Source: Ignavibacteriaceae bacterium (GTDB taxonomy: Bacteria > Bacteroidota > Ignavibacteria > Ignavibacteriales > Ignavibacteriaceae). Taken from it: a stretch of DNA of 64,000 nt. The position numbers and the translations under genes were made by a program. The stretch covers positions 1-64,000 of the forward strand of contig JACAFC010000094.1 of NCBI GenBank assembly GCA_013388515.1, given 5' to 3'. The notes beneath the pieces were generated by a model. It was not told the origin of the DNA and searched no databases. It worked only from the letters and a program-made list of their open reading frames with translations. Positions 7,134 through 36,703 of this stretch are shown here, in pieces (position 1 is the first letter of the stretch; each line of letters begins with the position of its first letter).

Positions 7134-9461
7134 TTACTTCGTGAGAATCATCTTCTTCGTTTGAGTAAATCCGCCAGCTTTTATTTGATATAAATATATT
7201 CCACTCGGAAGGTTTGAAGCATCAAAACTTATTGAATATGTTCCAGCTGCTTTTACTTCATTCACGAGTTTAAGTATTTCTCCTCCAAGAATATCATATA
7301 CTTTAAGAGTAACGAATTCATCCTTGGGTATGCTGAACTTTATTCGAGTTGCTGGGTTGAATGGATTTGGATAAGCATCGCTTAAAGAATATCTCTCCGG
7401 TATATTCTCAGTAAAGGTTTCTTTTTTCAGATTGCCGGCATTAAGAATTCCTAAATTAATTCCCGCAAATACTGTGAGATCCTCATCCGGGAATGCTTCT
7501 TTCATTCTTGAATAATACTCGTTGGCTTTTACCAAGTCTTGCTCACATTCAAAGTAATAGTTTGCCAAATCATAAAGTGCAGTTAACTCATTTACTGTGT
7601 TAGGGTAGTTGTTAATGAGTTCTGTATTATAAGCTACCATGTCTTTGTAATTATTAGCAAGGGCGGATTCTCTTGCAAGAAGTCTAACCGCAAATGGTCT
7701 TAATGCATCTTCTTTGGTTCTTGAATATATTTTCGTTAATGAACTACTCAATGCTGTTTTATTGTTCAAGTTAAATTTGTATAATGCTAAAAGTGCGAGC
7801 GGTGAATATTTCTGATCATATTTTCCTTCAATAATTAGCTGCAATAGTTCTTTAGCTTTTTGCAAGTCACCCTTTCTTCCAGTAGCAATAGCTTCCCAGT
7901 ACAATACAGCTGCATCGCCTTCGTTAATGAGTGAATTACTATTCTTACCTAAAGATGCTGCCAAAGAACCGCTGCATTCAGAACCTGGATTTGGATCTGA
8001 ACCTAAAGGAGTTCTTGATAAAATCCATGAAGTGCCATCTGCATAGACTTGTGGATTGGGCGAACCCCAATAATTGTTATCTGCATAAATTCCAGAATGA
8101 TTTACGGCTTCCATATCTGGCAGATCACTTCCGAATATGCTGTTATAACCGCCATCAAAGTCATAACCCATATAAACTGTTGAATAATTTTGAGCTTTTA
8201 AAAGCGGAGTTGCAGCGCAAGTAATTGCATTGTAACCACGCCATTGACCTGATGGCTGAACAAAATTTGGTACGCTTGAAGTTATGACTACTCCATGCGC
8301 ATTATCCGAAATGAAGTTATTATAGATGTAAGGGGAAGCGTTATTTAACAGCATTGCATAACCATTACCTTGCAGTGTATTGTCATGCCAGTAAAAGCTT
8401 GTTGAAATATTATTGGCATTTATACCATAGTTGGTATTGTTGCTAATATTGTTTCCGTCAAGCCAAGGACTTGATGATGAAAGGTTAAGGCCGGTACCAT
8501 TGTTAGAAATAGTATTGTCTGATAGTGTAAGTGTTGAACTGCTTAGACTATTTATTCCATAAAGTGAATTATTCGTTATTGTGCAGTTTGAGAGTGTTAC
8601 GGTTGCGCCGGAACTATAAATACCATACTGGGCTTCTCTAATTGTTGAATTACTAAATGAGCCATTACCACCAGAATTAAAAGTTAGGCTGTGCCAGTAA
8701 CCAGGGCTGCCGTTACCTTTTAAAGTGGCACCATTGGCATTAAACCATCCACCGCTTTGAACTGTGAGTTTTTTGCCAGGACTAAAAGTGATTATTGCTC
8801 CATTGTTTAGAGCTAAAGTTTTACCTGACAGAACTGATAAATCTGAAGTCACTGTTTGGGAGCCCGTAACGTTTACTGTCTGCCCTGAAAAACAAGCATT
8901 TAATGCTGATGCGATGTTAGATTGGTCTTGAGGTACATCAACAGATCTTCTGTAATATTTATTTGGAAGCCCATAGCCACTTGGGACATAATTCTCGGCA
9001 TGAAGAGCGAGTGGTAATGCTCCCCACTTTGAGATATAAACATTCGGTGTTGCAGTCGTAATAGCAGAATGATTTCCAGAATAACTCACTTTTGTAGAAA
9101 TGCTTTCCGTTAGTTCATCATAGCTCCCATCTGTCCAATAAATATCTTCTGCCGTAGAAGTATTTAATCCAACCCATACGCGAGAACCTCCTTGGCTTAC
9201 ATGCCAAGCATAAGCATGGCAATTGTAAGTTCTTGACGCATCATCTAATCGAGTTGCTTGTGGATAATCTTCGTCAAAATCGGTATTTATTTGAGTTATT
9301 GTAGCTTAATCAAATTCTGTACGGGTATATACATCAGGTACAACACTGCCTCGCGGAGTGTAAATTGTAGTCTGAGAATCACAATAAGATATACTGTATA
9401 AATTTGCAAAAGAACAGAACAATAAAAATATAAGAGATCGTTTGATTTGTTCAGTTTTCAT
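7134..9461 (-). pseudogene. Secreted beta-helix protein with cysteine-peptidase-like N-domain and type IX tail, interrupted by one in-frame TAA
   Basis: The frame runs from ATG 9459-9461 to the stop at 7134, 776 codons, but codon 52 (9306-9308) is TAA. Past it the frame stays open with good coding character. A GTG at 9087-9089 gives an apparent 651-residue protein without a signal peptide. The full product has a signal peptide (MKTEQIKRSLIFLLF). A region about 53-155 contains YNCHAYAWH (Cys81), HSAI (His131) and KWG..PL..H (Trp146, His154), which looks like a papain/NlpC-like cysteine-histidine site. Parallel beta-helix repeats follow (N-x-I-x-N-N patterns, about 190-420), then a TPR-like helical region (about 440-650), then a YPNPFNP secretion tail ending QTKKMILTK. 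The peptidase assignment is inference. Inactivation or a sequence error explains the stop best. Confidence 0.75.
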
Positions 9462-31849: not shown

Positions 31850-32080
31850 TTTCCTTCCAATCAAGTCCAAGTTTAAAAAAATACAGCTGCAGACGCCTGT
31901 TTATTTAGAATTCAGGCAGATTGCTTTAATATCCAGGCGATTAGCATTGTACTAATTCTTCGTTTTTGTTCAATTTTTAATCGTTTCACTTTGGCATGAT
32001 TGTTTAATAATGCACTGTGAAAATGAATTAAAGAAAAAACACAAATAACTCAATTATTCACAAAACAAATGGAGTACAAA

Positions 32081-33028
32081 ATGAAATCGCAACTTTCCCT
32101 TTTGGCACGTTTCTTTTCAATAGTAATGCTCGCTGTATTTGCATTATTTATTGGATGTAAAGAATCTTCGATTGAACCGGAAAGCACTGAGCCAACAACC
32201 GATACAGAAGCAATGCTAAAGCTAGCTGAAGAAGATTCTGCAGTAGCATCGTTCGAGCCAAGTTATAATGAAGAAGATGCTATGAGTTTCTTAGGTAAAA
32301 CTGAAGCTGAAATTTATCCATTTAAAGTCGGTCATAGAGTCCGCCTAGTAAACAGAAATTTAAGCGTTGATTTTGTGGGCGATACTGCATATGGAACACT
32401 TACCAAAACATTTGAAGGCACGCTAATTATTGCAGCTTCTTATAATTCAGGCGCTACACAGCCCGATACTGTAGTTAAAAAGCCCTTTACCTCAGTTATT
32501 ACTAAGAAGATTATTTTTGTTAGAAGAGATAGTACTCGGTTCCCTTATAGAAATTGGAAAATTGCCGCCATATCATTACCTGAAGGCGGAGTGCTTAGCC
32601 AAAACATAGATATTAAAAAACTAACAGCTTTCCTTCCAAATGGCGACACTCTTGTTATCAATTCTCCCAACAGTTATTTCTTATCAAGAGGATGGGGATG
32701 GTGGAGACAGCTTCCTATAATATCTAAAAATCAACCAACTACTATTAAGTTAGAAGTATACAGCGCTTACGCAGATACAGATTTTGTTACCTTAACTTAT
32801 GGTGCAGATATTAAAGGATTTCATAGAGCAAAGAAAAGATTTGTAATGACATCATCCGTTCCATCGGGCAATGGATATGATAAAACTTACGAACAAACCT
32901 ATACTTCGCATCAGTTTGTTGGTCATTATCATGCAATAATAAACGCACTGCCAAAGCAAGTTATATATGATGACGCTACGCTTGTTGAATCCGAAACATG
33001 GGGAATGCCCTACTTTATAAAGCCATAA
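32081..33028 (+). CDS. Lipoprotein of unknown function
   Basis: A 315-residue protein with a canonical lipobox, LFIGC, at Cys26 when started at ATG 32081. The GGAG seven bases upstream is part of an earlier ATG (32069) and supports the later start. After the signal there is a Glu/Thr-rich linker and then a beta-rich domain of unrecognised type. The gene has its own terminator, so it is separate from the three-gene operon downstream, though function may be linked. Confidence 0.6.
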   Translation: MKSQLSLLARFFSIVMLAVFALFIGCKESSIEPESTEPTTDTEAMLKLAEEDSAVASFEPSYNEEDAMSFLGKTEAEIYPFKVGHRVRLVNRNLSVDFVGDTAYGTLTKTFEGTLIIAASYNSGATQPDTVVKKPFTSVITKKIIFVRRDSTRFPYRNWKIAAISLPEGGVLSQNIDIKKLTAFLPNGDTLVINSPNSYFLSRGWGWWRQLPIISKNQPTTIKLEVYSAYADTDFVTLTYGADIKGFHRAKKRFVMTSSVPSGNGYDKTYEQTYTSHQFVGHYHAIINALPKQVIYDDATLVESETWGMPYFIKP

Positions 33029-33048: not shown

Positions 33049-33071
33049 GGGATGCTGCTGCGCGGCATCCC
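33049..33071 (+). terminator. Rho-independent terminator
   Basis: GGGATGC (33049-33055) pairs with GCATCCC (33065-33071) and is followed by TATTTATTTAAC. It lies 20 bp past the stop of the lipoprotein gene. Confidence 0.8.
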
Positions 33072-33137: not shown

Positions 33138-34004
33138 ATGAAATCATCAATTAAATATCTTTTTTTGTTTTTGCTTGTCCAATTTTACGTTGCTTGTAAC
33201 AGTCCGCAGCCAACCGCTCTTGTTGAGGATACTGATCCAATTGAAATTGAAGTAATAAATAAAAATCTTGCTGAACCAACAAGTTTTGGACTTGATTCAA
33301 CCGGAATAAGTGATAATCCAGCTCGGTTTACAAATGTTATAACTGTGGCAGGTATAAAATATGAATCAAATAAAGATTTGTTTAAAACCTCATTTGCTCA
33401 AGCTGTTTTTTTTGATAGATCAAAACCGGTATATGTCCTGAACCATCGTTTAATAGGTTATGGTACAAATACACCTGGCTCTGTTTATTTTAATAATAGA
33501 AGGGCAGATATTCGCCAACTAGTTGTAAAGTATAGTGCGAATAAAGATACCTCGCTGGGATTTCGTTACGTTCTGTATCGCAGAGCTGGTTTGGGTGATC
33601 CTTTCGATTTTGAATTTAACTCAACAGTAAATTTTAGATTCGACCCCATCTTATCTGCACCCATAAGTTTTGACATCACAACGCCGCCTGAAATTTTCTT
33701 AAACTATAAACTATCTGGTCAACGAGCAAATAAGAATTTGGCTCTACTGCTTGAGTGGAATGCGGGAAACGTGAAAAATTTCGAAATTCTTCTAAGTATT
33801 GGCGACATTCCATTATACAGAATTAAAACAGCAGATGATGGTAAATTTCTTATTCCTGTAAAATTACTTCAAGAGCTTGCTCAAAAATTCGATAGCATAA
33901 ATTTCACCCTCACCAGAAAATACGAGAAACGTGAAAGCAGCACCTTCAGCGAATTGATTGTTGTCTCTCAAAGTATATTCAATATTTCCATTGAGCTGCC
34001 TTGA
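33138..34004 (+). CDS. Lipoprotein, first gene of an exported three-gene operon
   Basis: A 288-residue protein with signal MKSSIKYLFLFLLVQFYVAC, where Cys20 is the predicted lipid site. The rest is beta-rich and contains no family I recognise. Its stop TGA (34002-34004) overlaps the TTG start of the next gene (34001-34003), so translation of the two is coupled. The product is probably anchored to the outer membrane and may partner the barrel protein encoded next. Confidence 0.65.
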   Translation: MKSSIKYLFLFLLVQFYVACNSPQPTALVEDTDPIEIEVINKNLAEPTSFGLDSTGISDNPARFTNVITVAGIKYESNKDLFKTSFAQAVFFDRSKPVYVLNHRLIGYGTNTPGSVYFNNRRADIRQLVVKYSANKDTSLGFRYVLYRRAGLGDPFDFEFNSTVNFRFDPILSAPISFDITTPPEIFLNYKLSGQRANKNLALLLEWNAGNVKNFEILLSIGDIPLYRIKTADDGKFLIPVKLLQELAQKFDSINFTLTRKYEKRESSTFSELIVVSQSIFNISIELP

Positions 34005-35995
34005 GAATAATTAATAAAACAATATTTATAATGACAATGTTTTGCTCTATCAATTCATGGGCACAAAATTCCTTTAGCTTGAATGGGCTTTGGAACTTAT
34101 CTCAAAAGGGAACTACTTTGCAGAACACCATGGACGGCAATGTATCTAATCACCTTTTATTTAAGGATTGGGGTTTTGCTTTTTCATTCGGAGGGGAATT
34201 TTCAAAACCGCTCACTTCAAACATTTACTCCTTGTCTCTATCAAAAAGGTTTGGCAAAAGTACATTAACAGCCCGATATACTCCTGGTTTTAAAAAAGAA
34301 TTTATATTCAGCAATAGCAATGGTATAGTGCTGGAAGATTCTTCATTCCAGCAGCTCAATTCGAAGTTTACTTATAAAGAATTACTCGGACTTGGATATG
34401 CTTTTTCTTTTTCGAATGACTTTAGCCTGGGATTTTCTTTTAGATACTTTTCACAAGAGTTTAACAACCAAACTTTTAAACCCGTTTCCTTTGGCGACAC
34501 ACTTTTTATTTTAGAACCAGAAAGTTTTATTGAATCCTCAAATTTTTGGAAAGGCGATATAGGATTTAACTATTCAATTGATGATTTTTTAACGCTTTCT
34601 GTTGCTTCTTTAAATTTATTTAGTATTAACGAACAGAATATTAGTGATGAAAATTTACAGTATAAAATAAGAGCTGATAAGGGTGCTCTGTTTAGAGCAT
34701 CCTATAAACCATTTGGACAAACAAGCATTAATCTTCTTTATGAAACCACAAATGCTTTTCAATTTGGTTTTAGTAGTCTAGCTTCATTCGATAATGCCCA
34801 CATTGGTTTATGCATCGCCGCTCAACACGATAAGCTTCAGACTCCGTATATAAATGGACTTACTGGCAGTATACTATTTTCCAATGATCTTTGGGGTATT
34901 TCGTTGAGCGGAATAAAATATTTTAATAATCGCGACAAGGTCTATCCATTTTCTGAGTTTAAAGCACAGGGAATACAGAATCTGATTAATAATAAATACA
35001 GCTTGGATAAAGCATTTTTAACAATCACTTTAACCTTGAATACTATTCAAGAAAAATTAGTAAGGTTTCTGTCGGTTGACATAAACAAAGACATTTATCC
35101 GGCTTTCTACGAAGCTTATGTTGACACTCCCTTTGCGCTTGGAAAAATTATAAGCCTAAGCGACAAAACCATACAAGTAAGGCCATCGAGTAAAATCGAA
35201 GGAATAAATTCTGATTTTACACAATCGCCAATAGTAACTATTCAACCAAAAGATACCGTGCTCGTGCCCTTTTACACAATCATATCAGATTCATATGACA
35301 AACAAAAAGCTGAGATTGCTCAGGTATCTTTTGCTTTAACAATCTCGGGCGAAGAACCGGATGATTTCAATCAGGCTCCAATATTAATTAATGGCGTAAA
35401 CAGCTGGGATGGCAAGGTAAGTAATTTAAAGTACTTCATAAAAAAGGATCTTGGTTATTCGATGGGTTTTTCGAAAAATGTGTTAAGCAAAAAGAAGATT
35501 TTGCTTGATACTATTTTATATTCGTTATCACCCTTTTATAAAGCCAAATACATTTTTGAAGATTTCGCCAAGGAGATCACATACACTTCGGATCCAAGAG
35601 CAACCACTGAGTATGTTCAGTTTCCAAATGAAACAATTAAACTCCGCGGTGGTGATTGCGATGATTTAAGTGTCTGTTACAGTTCACTTTTAGAAAGTGT
35701 TGGAATTGAAACGGCATTGGTAGACTACAAAGGCGGCAATAATATTCGGCATGTTAACATCCTGTTTAATACAAACCTAACACCCGATGATGCTAAGCTT
35801 ATTACAGAAAACGATTCAAAATATTTTGTTAGAAAAGATGAAAATGGGACCGATGAAATCTGGATTCCAATTGAAACAACGGAACTAACTAATTTTGACG
35901 CTGCCTGGGAAACTGGTGCAGAAAAATTTTATACTGAAGCTATTGAACATCTTGGTCTTGCAAAAGGTGTTGTTGAAATAATTGACGTTTACTAA
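34001..35995 (+). CDS. Beta-barrel protein with C-terminal transglutaminase-like domain
   Basis: A 664-residue exported protein. Signal peptide at residues 1-21 ending in SWAQ. About 30-350 is an amphipathic beta-strand-rich region with many aromatic strand ends, as in outer-membrane barrels. A linker follows, and from about 480 a transglutaminase/papain-like domain contains GGDCDDLS (Cys553), RHVNI (His584) and a following WIPIETT. The Cys-His-acid order fits bacterial transglutaminase-like proteases. The start is TTG at 34001; using the ATG at 34031 instead would lose the basic residues of the signal. The next gene begins 24 bp downstream. The function is not known; I infer a periplasmic or surface protease or cross-linking enzyme tethered to the outer membrane. 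Confidence 0.65.
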   Translation: MRIINKTIFIMTMFCSINSWAQNSFSLNGLWNLSQKGTTLQNTMDGNVSNHLLFKDWGFAFSFGGEFSKPLTSNIYSLSLSKRFGKSTLTARYTPGFKKEFIFSNSNGIVLEDSSFQQLNSKFTYKELLGLGYAFSFSNDFSLGFSFRYFSQEFNNQTFKPVSFGDTLFILEPESFIESSNFWKGDIGFNYSIDDFLTLSVASLNLFSINEQNISDENLQYKIRADKGALFRASYKPFGQTSINLLYETTNAFQFGFSSLASFDNAHIGLCIAAQHDKLQTPYINGLTGSILFSNDLWGISLSGIKYFNNRDKVYPFSEFKAQGIQNLINNKYSLDKAFLTITLTLNTIQEKLVRFLSVDINKDIYPAFYEAYVDTPFALGKIISLSDKTIQVRPSSKIEGINSDFTQSPIVTIQPKDTVLVPFYTIISDSYDKQKAEIAQVSFALTISGEEPDDFNQAPILINGVNSWDGKVSNLKYFIKKDLGYSMGFSKNVLSKKKILLDTILYSLSPFYKAKYIFEDFAKEITYTSDPRATTEYVQFPNETIKLRGGDCDDLSVCYSSLLESVGIETALVDYKGGNNIRHVNILFNTNLTPDDAKLITENDSKYFVRKDENGTDEIWIPIETTELTNFDAAWETGAEKFYTEAIEHLGLAKGVVEIIDVY

Positions 35996-36019
35996 TAAAA
36001 GAATATTTGAGAGTAAAAA

Positions 36020-36703
36020 ATGAAACATTTATTATTTTTTTTAGTGCTTGCTTCTGAACTGGTTTTTACACAAAAATGTTATGTGGAAAGCATAACTGGA
36101 AGCGTAAGGGCGCAAATTGGAACAAATGAACGGTGGACTGAAATTCAAGAAGGTATTGAATTACCACCTTACAGCACAGTATCAACTGAAAAAAATTCAT
36201 CGGCTGTGTTAGTAAAAGGAAACACAAAATTTACTTTAAAGGAATCGGCAGCTGTTACCGTTAATAACATAAAAAAAATGTCCGTCGATGATCTTTTGTT
36301 GGCTCTTGCAATGGAAGATATGCTAAACGCTCCTCGAAAAAAGGATGACGCAAAATCCAAAAGCACTCAAATCTATGGTGAACTAAACAAAGAAGAAAAG
36401 ACCAACAGTGTTTCAAATACAGAGTTTGGATTAATGAGGCTGAACGGGGCAAAACAATTGGGTGAAAGCGGATTCAGAGAATCTGCGATTGTAGCCGCAA
36501 AAGAAACATATCGCAAGTATCCTGAAACCAAAAAAATTATTTCCTACAGAATTTATTTTGCAAATTTGCTTTATGAAAAGGGATTGTATGAAGAAGCTTA
36601 TTCAGAATTTGACTCATTTAAAAATTTAGCAATGAGTGAAAAGGAAAAAACTGAAATAAGCTCTAAAATGGATATGTTAAACAAGAAGCTAATAAATAAA
36701 TAG
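36020..36703 (+). CDS. FecR-domain protein with TPR-like helices
   Basis: A 227-residue exported protein (signal MKHLLFFLVLASELVFTQ). Residues about 20-75 resemble a FecR fold (ITGSVRAQIGTNERW, then EGIELPPYSTVSTEKNSSAVL). An acidic and lysine-rich linker and a TPR-like helical end follow (about 135-225). FecR domains are periplasmic and often modulate or scaffold other envelope proteins. It starts 24 bp after the barrel/transglutaminase gene and belongs to the same operon. Confidence 0.65.
   Translation: MKHLLFFLVLASELVFTQKCYVESITGSVRAQIGTNERWTEIQEGIELPPYSTVSTEKNSSAVLVKGNTKFTLKESAAVTVNNIKKMSVDDLLLALAMEDMLNAPRKKDDAKSKSTQIYGELNKEEKTNSVSNTEFGLMRLNGAKQLGESGFRESAIVAAKETYRKYPETKKIISYRIYFANLLYEKGLYEEAYSEFDSFKNLAMSEKEKTEISSKMDMLNKKLINK

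Follow-up and report, generated by a model that had tools for sequence, protein, structure and literature searches.

Four consecutive genes in the DNA analysed here, a window of 64,000 nucleotides from contig JACAFC010000094.1 of an Ignavibacteriaceae bacterium with a genome of 3.9 Mb, almost certainly form one conserved unit with the folds predicted below, which we call U-A-B-C (Table 1). Our preferred reading, to which we assign a probability of roughly 60%, is that the unit encodes a dedicated inducible envelope module, in which a PorV-like barrel with a protease-like domain would act on particular clients of the type IX secretion system (T9SS) under the control of a regulator, S. Sequence and statistics back this reading with the gene order, the co-occurrence of S, the activator sites and promoter, the predicted folds, a conserved triad, and the linkage and shared regulation of T9SS clients in relatives.

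The original prediction had described A, B and C as three tightly coupled genes, and in this window they lie just as described: the TTG start of B and the TGA of A lie in a 4-bp overlap, and B and C are separated by a 24-bp gap. Both couplings are kept in about 75 relatives, with a median distance of −4 for A–B and +15 for B–C, and the 4-bp overlap of A and B is the usual state in the family. A single-sequence search of genome contigs gave nothing, whereas an alignment query did, and 80 named loci were retrieved with the B profile. Among these, U-A-B-C was found in 33 and S-U-A-B-C on one strand in about 30, while the remainder were mostly truncated at contig ends. Matches to B occurred in 101 of 294 genomes from many families of the class (about 70 near full length), and a plasmid search gave no match. 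The expected conservation of gene order in other Ignavibacteria was thus borne out in essentially all relatives, across the class. The limit to three genes was too narrow, since U heads the unit; the activator sites, the promoter and the unlinked S had also been missed.

In most families outside the window's own, an S of about 800–900 residues, combining CHASE2 with Sigma54_activat, is encoded directly upstream of U. The S of the window genome has 818 residues (CHASE2 24–287, AAA+ 441–607, GSFTGA loop) and is unlinked, on contig C74 (L075:4599-7052). The AAA+ sigma-54 domain of S matches PF00158 at E 4.8e-70, and rpoN is present in the window genome. Co-occurrence was scored in 59 genomes of three families (f1–f3), with S counted at E < 1e-50 and B at full length: both were present in 30 (one of them with partial matches to both), S only in 1, B only in 0, and neither in 28. 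This agreement exceeds mere neighbourhood because S is unlinked in f1. S very probably controls U-A-B-C via sigma-54.

Of 65 regions upstream of U, 35 carry the promoter pattern TGGCAY-N6-TG, compared with 0/245 before A, B, C or S and 5/653 before other open reading frames (ORFs). When the f1 form ([TC]GGCAY-N5-TT) is included, these counts become 50/66 for U, 4/272 for A, B, C, S and M, and 14/674 for other ORFs. The −24 element is conserved in position upstream of U among relatives, and the −12 element of the U promoter is TT without G in the window's lineage and TG in other families. Across the window genome the f1-type promoter gave 3 forward matches against 1+1 in the control, and one of them is the U promoter. 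Matches elsewhere were rejected as regulon members, as they lie inside a trp gene or ahead of a TonB-like one. By clade, S carries a GAFT[ND]A loop with a −12 NTG in f2 and a GSFTGA or GAFTGA loop with a −12 TT(C/T) in f1, while the −12 is TTG elsewhere (S genes in L099–L156 and L075); the GAFTGA loop could therefore co-vary with the −12 element, a relation confounded by phylogeny.

Upstream of U, direct repeats T[TC]CNNGC[AG] lie 21 bp apart in 31 regions and 22 bp apart in 9, never 20 or 23. The pair at a spacing of 20–22 bp is found in 39/66 U regions, compared with 10/832 other regions and 0.04 for shuffles, and its single occurrence in the whole window genome is at the U-A-B-C operon. Of 52 further module-bearing genomes, 40 contain the pair, at 49 sites versus 3 for the reversed pattern; 32 of these sites are at the U-A-B-C locus, 13 are intergenic elsewhere, and 4 within coding sequences, at L192, L218, L234 and L239, were set aside as chance. 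Moreover, the gap between U and A holds a strong hairpin in about 50 of 57 loci (median z −3.9), formed by unrelated sequences, and no sigma-54 promoter precedes A (0/67). Hence, transcription of A-B-C would probably proceed by read-through and be weaker than that of U.

The 13 intergenic sites away from the locus provide a hint at what the enzyme may handle. Nine precede genes with a T9SS type A sorting tail (TIGR04183 or PF18962), 3 precede lipoprotein genes and 1 is unclear; a −24 element stands at the expected distance in 10 of the 13, and 6 of these 10 are sorting-tail genes. Sorting tails make up 3.6% of ORFs around the loci and 5.7% in the 0.94 Mb (24%) of the window genome that our sorting-tail and cargo survey covered, and at the latter frequency the binomial probability of 9/13 is about 5e-9 by our own arithmetic, the cases being partly dependent. 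One homologous cargo family, of about 620–670 residues with CarboxypepD_reg domains and a sorting tail, is linked to U-A-B-C in six loci: between U and A (L109), before U (L114, L119) and after C (L150, L155, L156). In four other genomes (L241–L244) it is unlinked yet behind the same activator switch. Since this family is tied to U-A-B-C by both position and regulation, it is the best clue to the substrate. The same switch before T9SS cargo in some relatives suggests what B handles, and from these sequence associations we put the case for T9SS clients as its substrate slightly short of even odds. None of the 44 sorting-tail ORFs surveyed in the window genome is preceded by an activator pair. 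One T9SS protein of beta-helix type (651 residues called), recognised by the sorting-tail model, lies in the window itself at 7134–9089 on the reverse strand; it has no activator pair upstream, and its reading frame is apparently broken or shortened at the 5′ end.

A barrel joined to a transglutaminase (TG)-like fold had been proposed for B, and both parts appear in an AlphaFold model built from 56 sequences (predicted local distance difference test score, pLDDT, 85; predicted template modelling score, pTM, 0.56), where they match solved folds at Z of about 20 and 11. The model comprises a barrel (57–361), a small beta domain (379–463) and a mixed papain/TG fold (473–662). In VIA comparisons TodX, FadL and PorV fit the barrel equally well, the PorV matches being 8gl6_F (Z 20.2) and 6h3i_F (Z 19.4). 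The NCBIfam model NF033709 (PorV/PorQ) is matched by 21 of 29 B homologues at E ≤ 0.1 (best 1.9e-18), and this PorV/PorQ likeness points to type IX secretion. We hold with good confidence that B is a PorV-like barrel in the outer membrane. By analogy with the topology of FadL and PorV, the C-terminal domain of B should be periplasmic.

The C-terminal domain of B resembles the putative protease 3kd4 (Z 11.0 over 137 residues) and matches PF01841 Transglut_core in residues 510–577 at 27.2 bits (cut-off 23), as do all 29 members at E 0.1 or better. The Cys553/His584 pair of the original prediction is invariant in 56/56 homologues, in which D554, D555 and E625 are also invariant and GDCDD is near-invariant. 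In the model Cys553 opens a helix, His584 lies on a later strand and Glu625 directly follows strand 618–624. The GDCDD motif resembles that of the LapG protease; the LapG model NF045674 is matched by 2/29 members (best E 0.0026), and LapG entries of PDB at E 0.035–0.07. B is probably an active cysteine enzyme, for which proteolysis seems considerably more probable than cross-linking. The antiphage model NF058533 (ProA) is also weakly matched by 16/29 homologues (best E 6.6e-5; residues 525–631 in the window's B), presumably via the common TG-like fold. The TG-like domain further occurs with TPR repeats in proteins of 830–850 residues (L051, L052, L054, L055, L056), three of which (L051, L052, L055) adjoin a CHASE2-type protein, which Pfam identifies in L052 as a guanylate/adenylate cyclase; a CsgG-like gene is also found at L051 and L055, and versions of 1513 residues lie near CHASE2-cyclases at L053 and L067.

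Searches of Pfam and NCBIfam gave no usable match for U, A or C. The lipobox cysteine of A, Cys20, is invariant in 20/20 sequences, in agreement with its earlier assignment as a lipoprotein, and Cys30 of U is invariant in 19/19. The description of C as a FecR/TPR protein stands in part: its structural model shows a beta domain (20–80) followed by TPR-like helices (133–226), and residues 1–86 match small FecR proteins in a profile–profile comparison (hhalign probability 95.5, E 1.6e-8), whereas Pfam FecR (PF04773) is matched by 0/27 members. By its profile, C begins with a domain distantly related to FecR. Foldseek with C returned TPR-type and similar matches only, none at E < 0.001.

Table 1. 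Features of the U-A-B-C unit and its upstream region (positions in the window)
Feature	Position	Strand	Description
Gene U	32069–33028	+	Lipoprotein, 319 aa; first gene of conserved unit; lipobox Cys30
Gene A	33138–34004	+	Lipoprotein, 288 aa
Gene B	34001–35995	+	Predicted PorV/FadL-type barrel + papain/transglutaminase-like domain, 664 aa, TTG start
Gene C	36020–36703	+	Predicted periplasmic FecR-like domain + TPR-like helices, 227 aa
B residues 21–361	34061–35083	+	Predicted outer-membrane barrel, FadL/TodX/PorV fold; VIA Z 19–21.6; NF033709 in 21/29 members
B residues 470–662	35408–35986	+	Papain/transglutaminase-like domain; Cys553 (codon 35657–35659), His584, Glu625
Putative upstream activator site 1, TTCAGGCA	31911–31918	+	Direct repeat, 21 bp from site 2; putative S binding site
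Putative upstream activator site 2, TCCAGGCG	31932–31939	+	Direct repeat partner of site 1
Putative sigma-54-type promoter, TGGCATGATTGTTT	31992–32005	+	−24 element TGGCATG; lineage-typical −12 region, TT replacing TTGC
Stem-loop GGGATGC...GCATCCC, then T-rich sequence	33049–33071	+	U-A gap; attenuator, partial terminator or processing site

According to our model, S, a sigma-54 enhancer-binding protein that sits in the membrane and carries a CHASE2 sensor, would have U-A-B-C as its dedicated target operon. An envelope cue sensed by S would lead it to bind the two repeats spaced by 21 bp and activate the −24/−12 promoter before U, and U would perhaps be made in excess because the stem-loop sets it apart from A-B-C. 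B would form a PorV-like barrel in the outer membrane, its papain/TG-like domain reaching into the periplasm, A and U would be lipoproteins, and C would be a periplasmic FecR/TPR scaffold. Specific T9SS clients, in some relatives induced together with the module, would then be handled, probably by LapG-like proteolytic processing. We infer that S binds DNA, that B is active as an enzyme, that the client is its substrate, what kind of signal is sensed, and that the window organism has a matching client. The exported envelope system with a papain/TG-like enzyme that had been proposed still stands in this model. In its most specific form, the model describes a client-specific T9SS maturation module, with a cargo shuttle and a cysteine protease (or cross-linker) in one chain, co-induced with its own client by a CHASE2–sigma-54 sensor via paired sites; this form is tentative, and we place it on the doubtful side.

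Several observations weigh against our preferred reading. All of the evidence is computed, from sequence and predicted structures. No significant helix-turn-helix was found in the C-terminal 130 residues of S, the −12 element of the window's lineage is degenerate, and the window genome has no second activator site. Three of the nine cargo sites have no recognisable −24 element, and four of the nine belong to one homologous family. The window's own B does not match NF033709 at E 0.1, and where LapG has the Asp of its Cys-His-Asp triad, all 56 of 56 sequences have Glu625. No full-length ortholog of the cargo family was found in the 24% of the window genome that was sampled; with neither such an ortholog nor an extra activator site there, the client link is seen in relatives only.

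Another explanation, which we consider rather unlikely, is that B, C, A and U are the outer-membrane and periplasmic input that activates S, as NsrA does for CHASE2 cyclases in Sinorhizobium, with autoregulation amplifying the sensor; at the same low likelihood, the TG-like domain would cleave a periplasmic inhibitor or ligand of CHASE2. CHASE2 proteins are elsewhere paired with an outer-membrane barrel or FecR/TPR proteins (PMC13001267, PMC7529298, PMC9239204, PMC5192318), proteins of other architectures that contain the TG-like domain of B are encoded next to CHASE2-cyclases (L051, L052, L053, L055), and U-A-B-C is the only S site in most genomes. However, the pathway in S. meliloti co-regulates FecR and TPR proteins that are dispensable for signal perception (PMC5498481), and a sensing role accounts neither for the T9SS cargo that shares the switch or lies within the operon nor for the PorV-type barrel. 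A sensing role and the handling of T9SS clients could also be compatible with each other.

Cross-linking by a true transglutaminase or amide ligase, linking the repeat domains of the secreted clients with one another or with U/A, seems improbable. PF01841 scores above its cut-off, and the clients carry CarboxypepD_reg/SdrD_B/SpaA-type domains, folds known for isopeptide cross-links; however, the best sequence neighbours of known activity are LapG proteases, and prokaryotic domains of the TG fold are mostly hydrolases. An inert scaffold, or an ordinary FadL-type transporter whose additional domain binds without catalysis, would suit a fold that fits the hydrophobic-compound channels TodX and FadL as well as PorV, but is very improbable given that, among 56 divergent proteins, Cys-His-Glu never varies and GDCDD hardly varies, and given the dedicated regulation.

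Two further groups of genes may be mentioned here. In some families (L062:675-4311, L136, L137, L145, L150, L151, L152, L155, L156) the genes ahead of S encode two lipoproteins, one with TPR and one with DUF4292, together with an M23 murein peptidase, which suggests a cell-wall connection. The window genome also has a second CHASE2 locus (L076, contig C38, 4621–10117), encoding a CHASE2 protein of 392 residues without output domain, a C-like paralog of 315 residues (E 1e-9), a papain-family protein and an S9 peptidase.

In general, little is known about what CHASE2 sensors bind and how they are wired. Here a CHASE2 protein has a precisely mapped and usually single target, hence its regulon and signal are directly testable. 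Should T9SS clients indeed be processed by B, this would add a second kind of cysteine enzyme that is carried by a PorV-like barrel, and would offer a route to induced, client-specific maturation of surface proteins across a widespread class of mostly uncultured bacteria.

Clusters combining CHASE2 with FecR are known from Burkholderia, as BiofilmReg (PMC5192318), and from Campylobacterota, with CHASE2 adenylate cyclases (PMC9239204). As in these clusters, a CHASE2 membrane sensor goes together with a FecR-type protein of the periplasm or outer membrane, and in Campylobacterota with a TPR protein too; unlike them, the present system has a sigma-54 activator output, a PorV-like barrel-protease, two lipoproteins, a −24/−12 promoter and paired activator sites. 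Our literature search found no paper connecting CHASE2 with sigma-54 and no meaningful connection of PorV with transglutaminase. In S. meliloti the outer-membrane beta-barrel NsrA works with the CHASE2 proteins CyaK, CyaD1 and CyaD2 (PMC7529298, PMC13001267), which likewise joins such a barrel to an inner-membrane CHASE2 protein; in contrast, its output is a cyclase, and the sections of these reports used here do not describe a protease domain or T9SS link.

By analogy, LapG may be the nearest functional analogue of the enzyme in B. The LapG/LapD/LapA system shares a periplasmic TG-fold cysteine protease, a GDC(E/D)D motif, inner-membrane control and secreted surface proteins as targets (LapG, PMC4359373). 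Here, in contrast, the domain is fused to an outer-membrane barrel, control would act on transcription by way of sigma-54, and T9SS cargo proteins are the candidate substrates; with Glu as its acid and with its domain fused, B is no LapG member in the strict sense. T9SS itself offers PorV/PorQ-family barrels, a PorV-associated cysteine protease in the PorU–PorV attachment complex and clients with type A sorting tails. PorU has a gingipain-like fold, whereas here a protease-like domain of TG/papain fold is fused to the barrel, in one separately switched module per genome. What is new is the combination of three features: mapped enhancer pairs together with a sigma-54 output, a protease-like domain joined to a barrel of PorV type, and T9SS clients that stand behind this switch as well.

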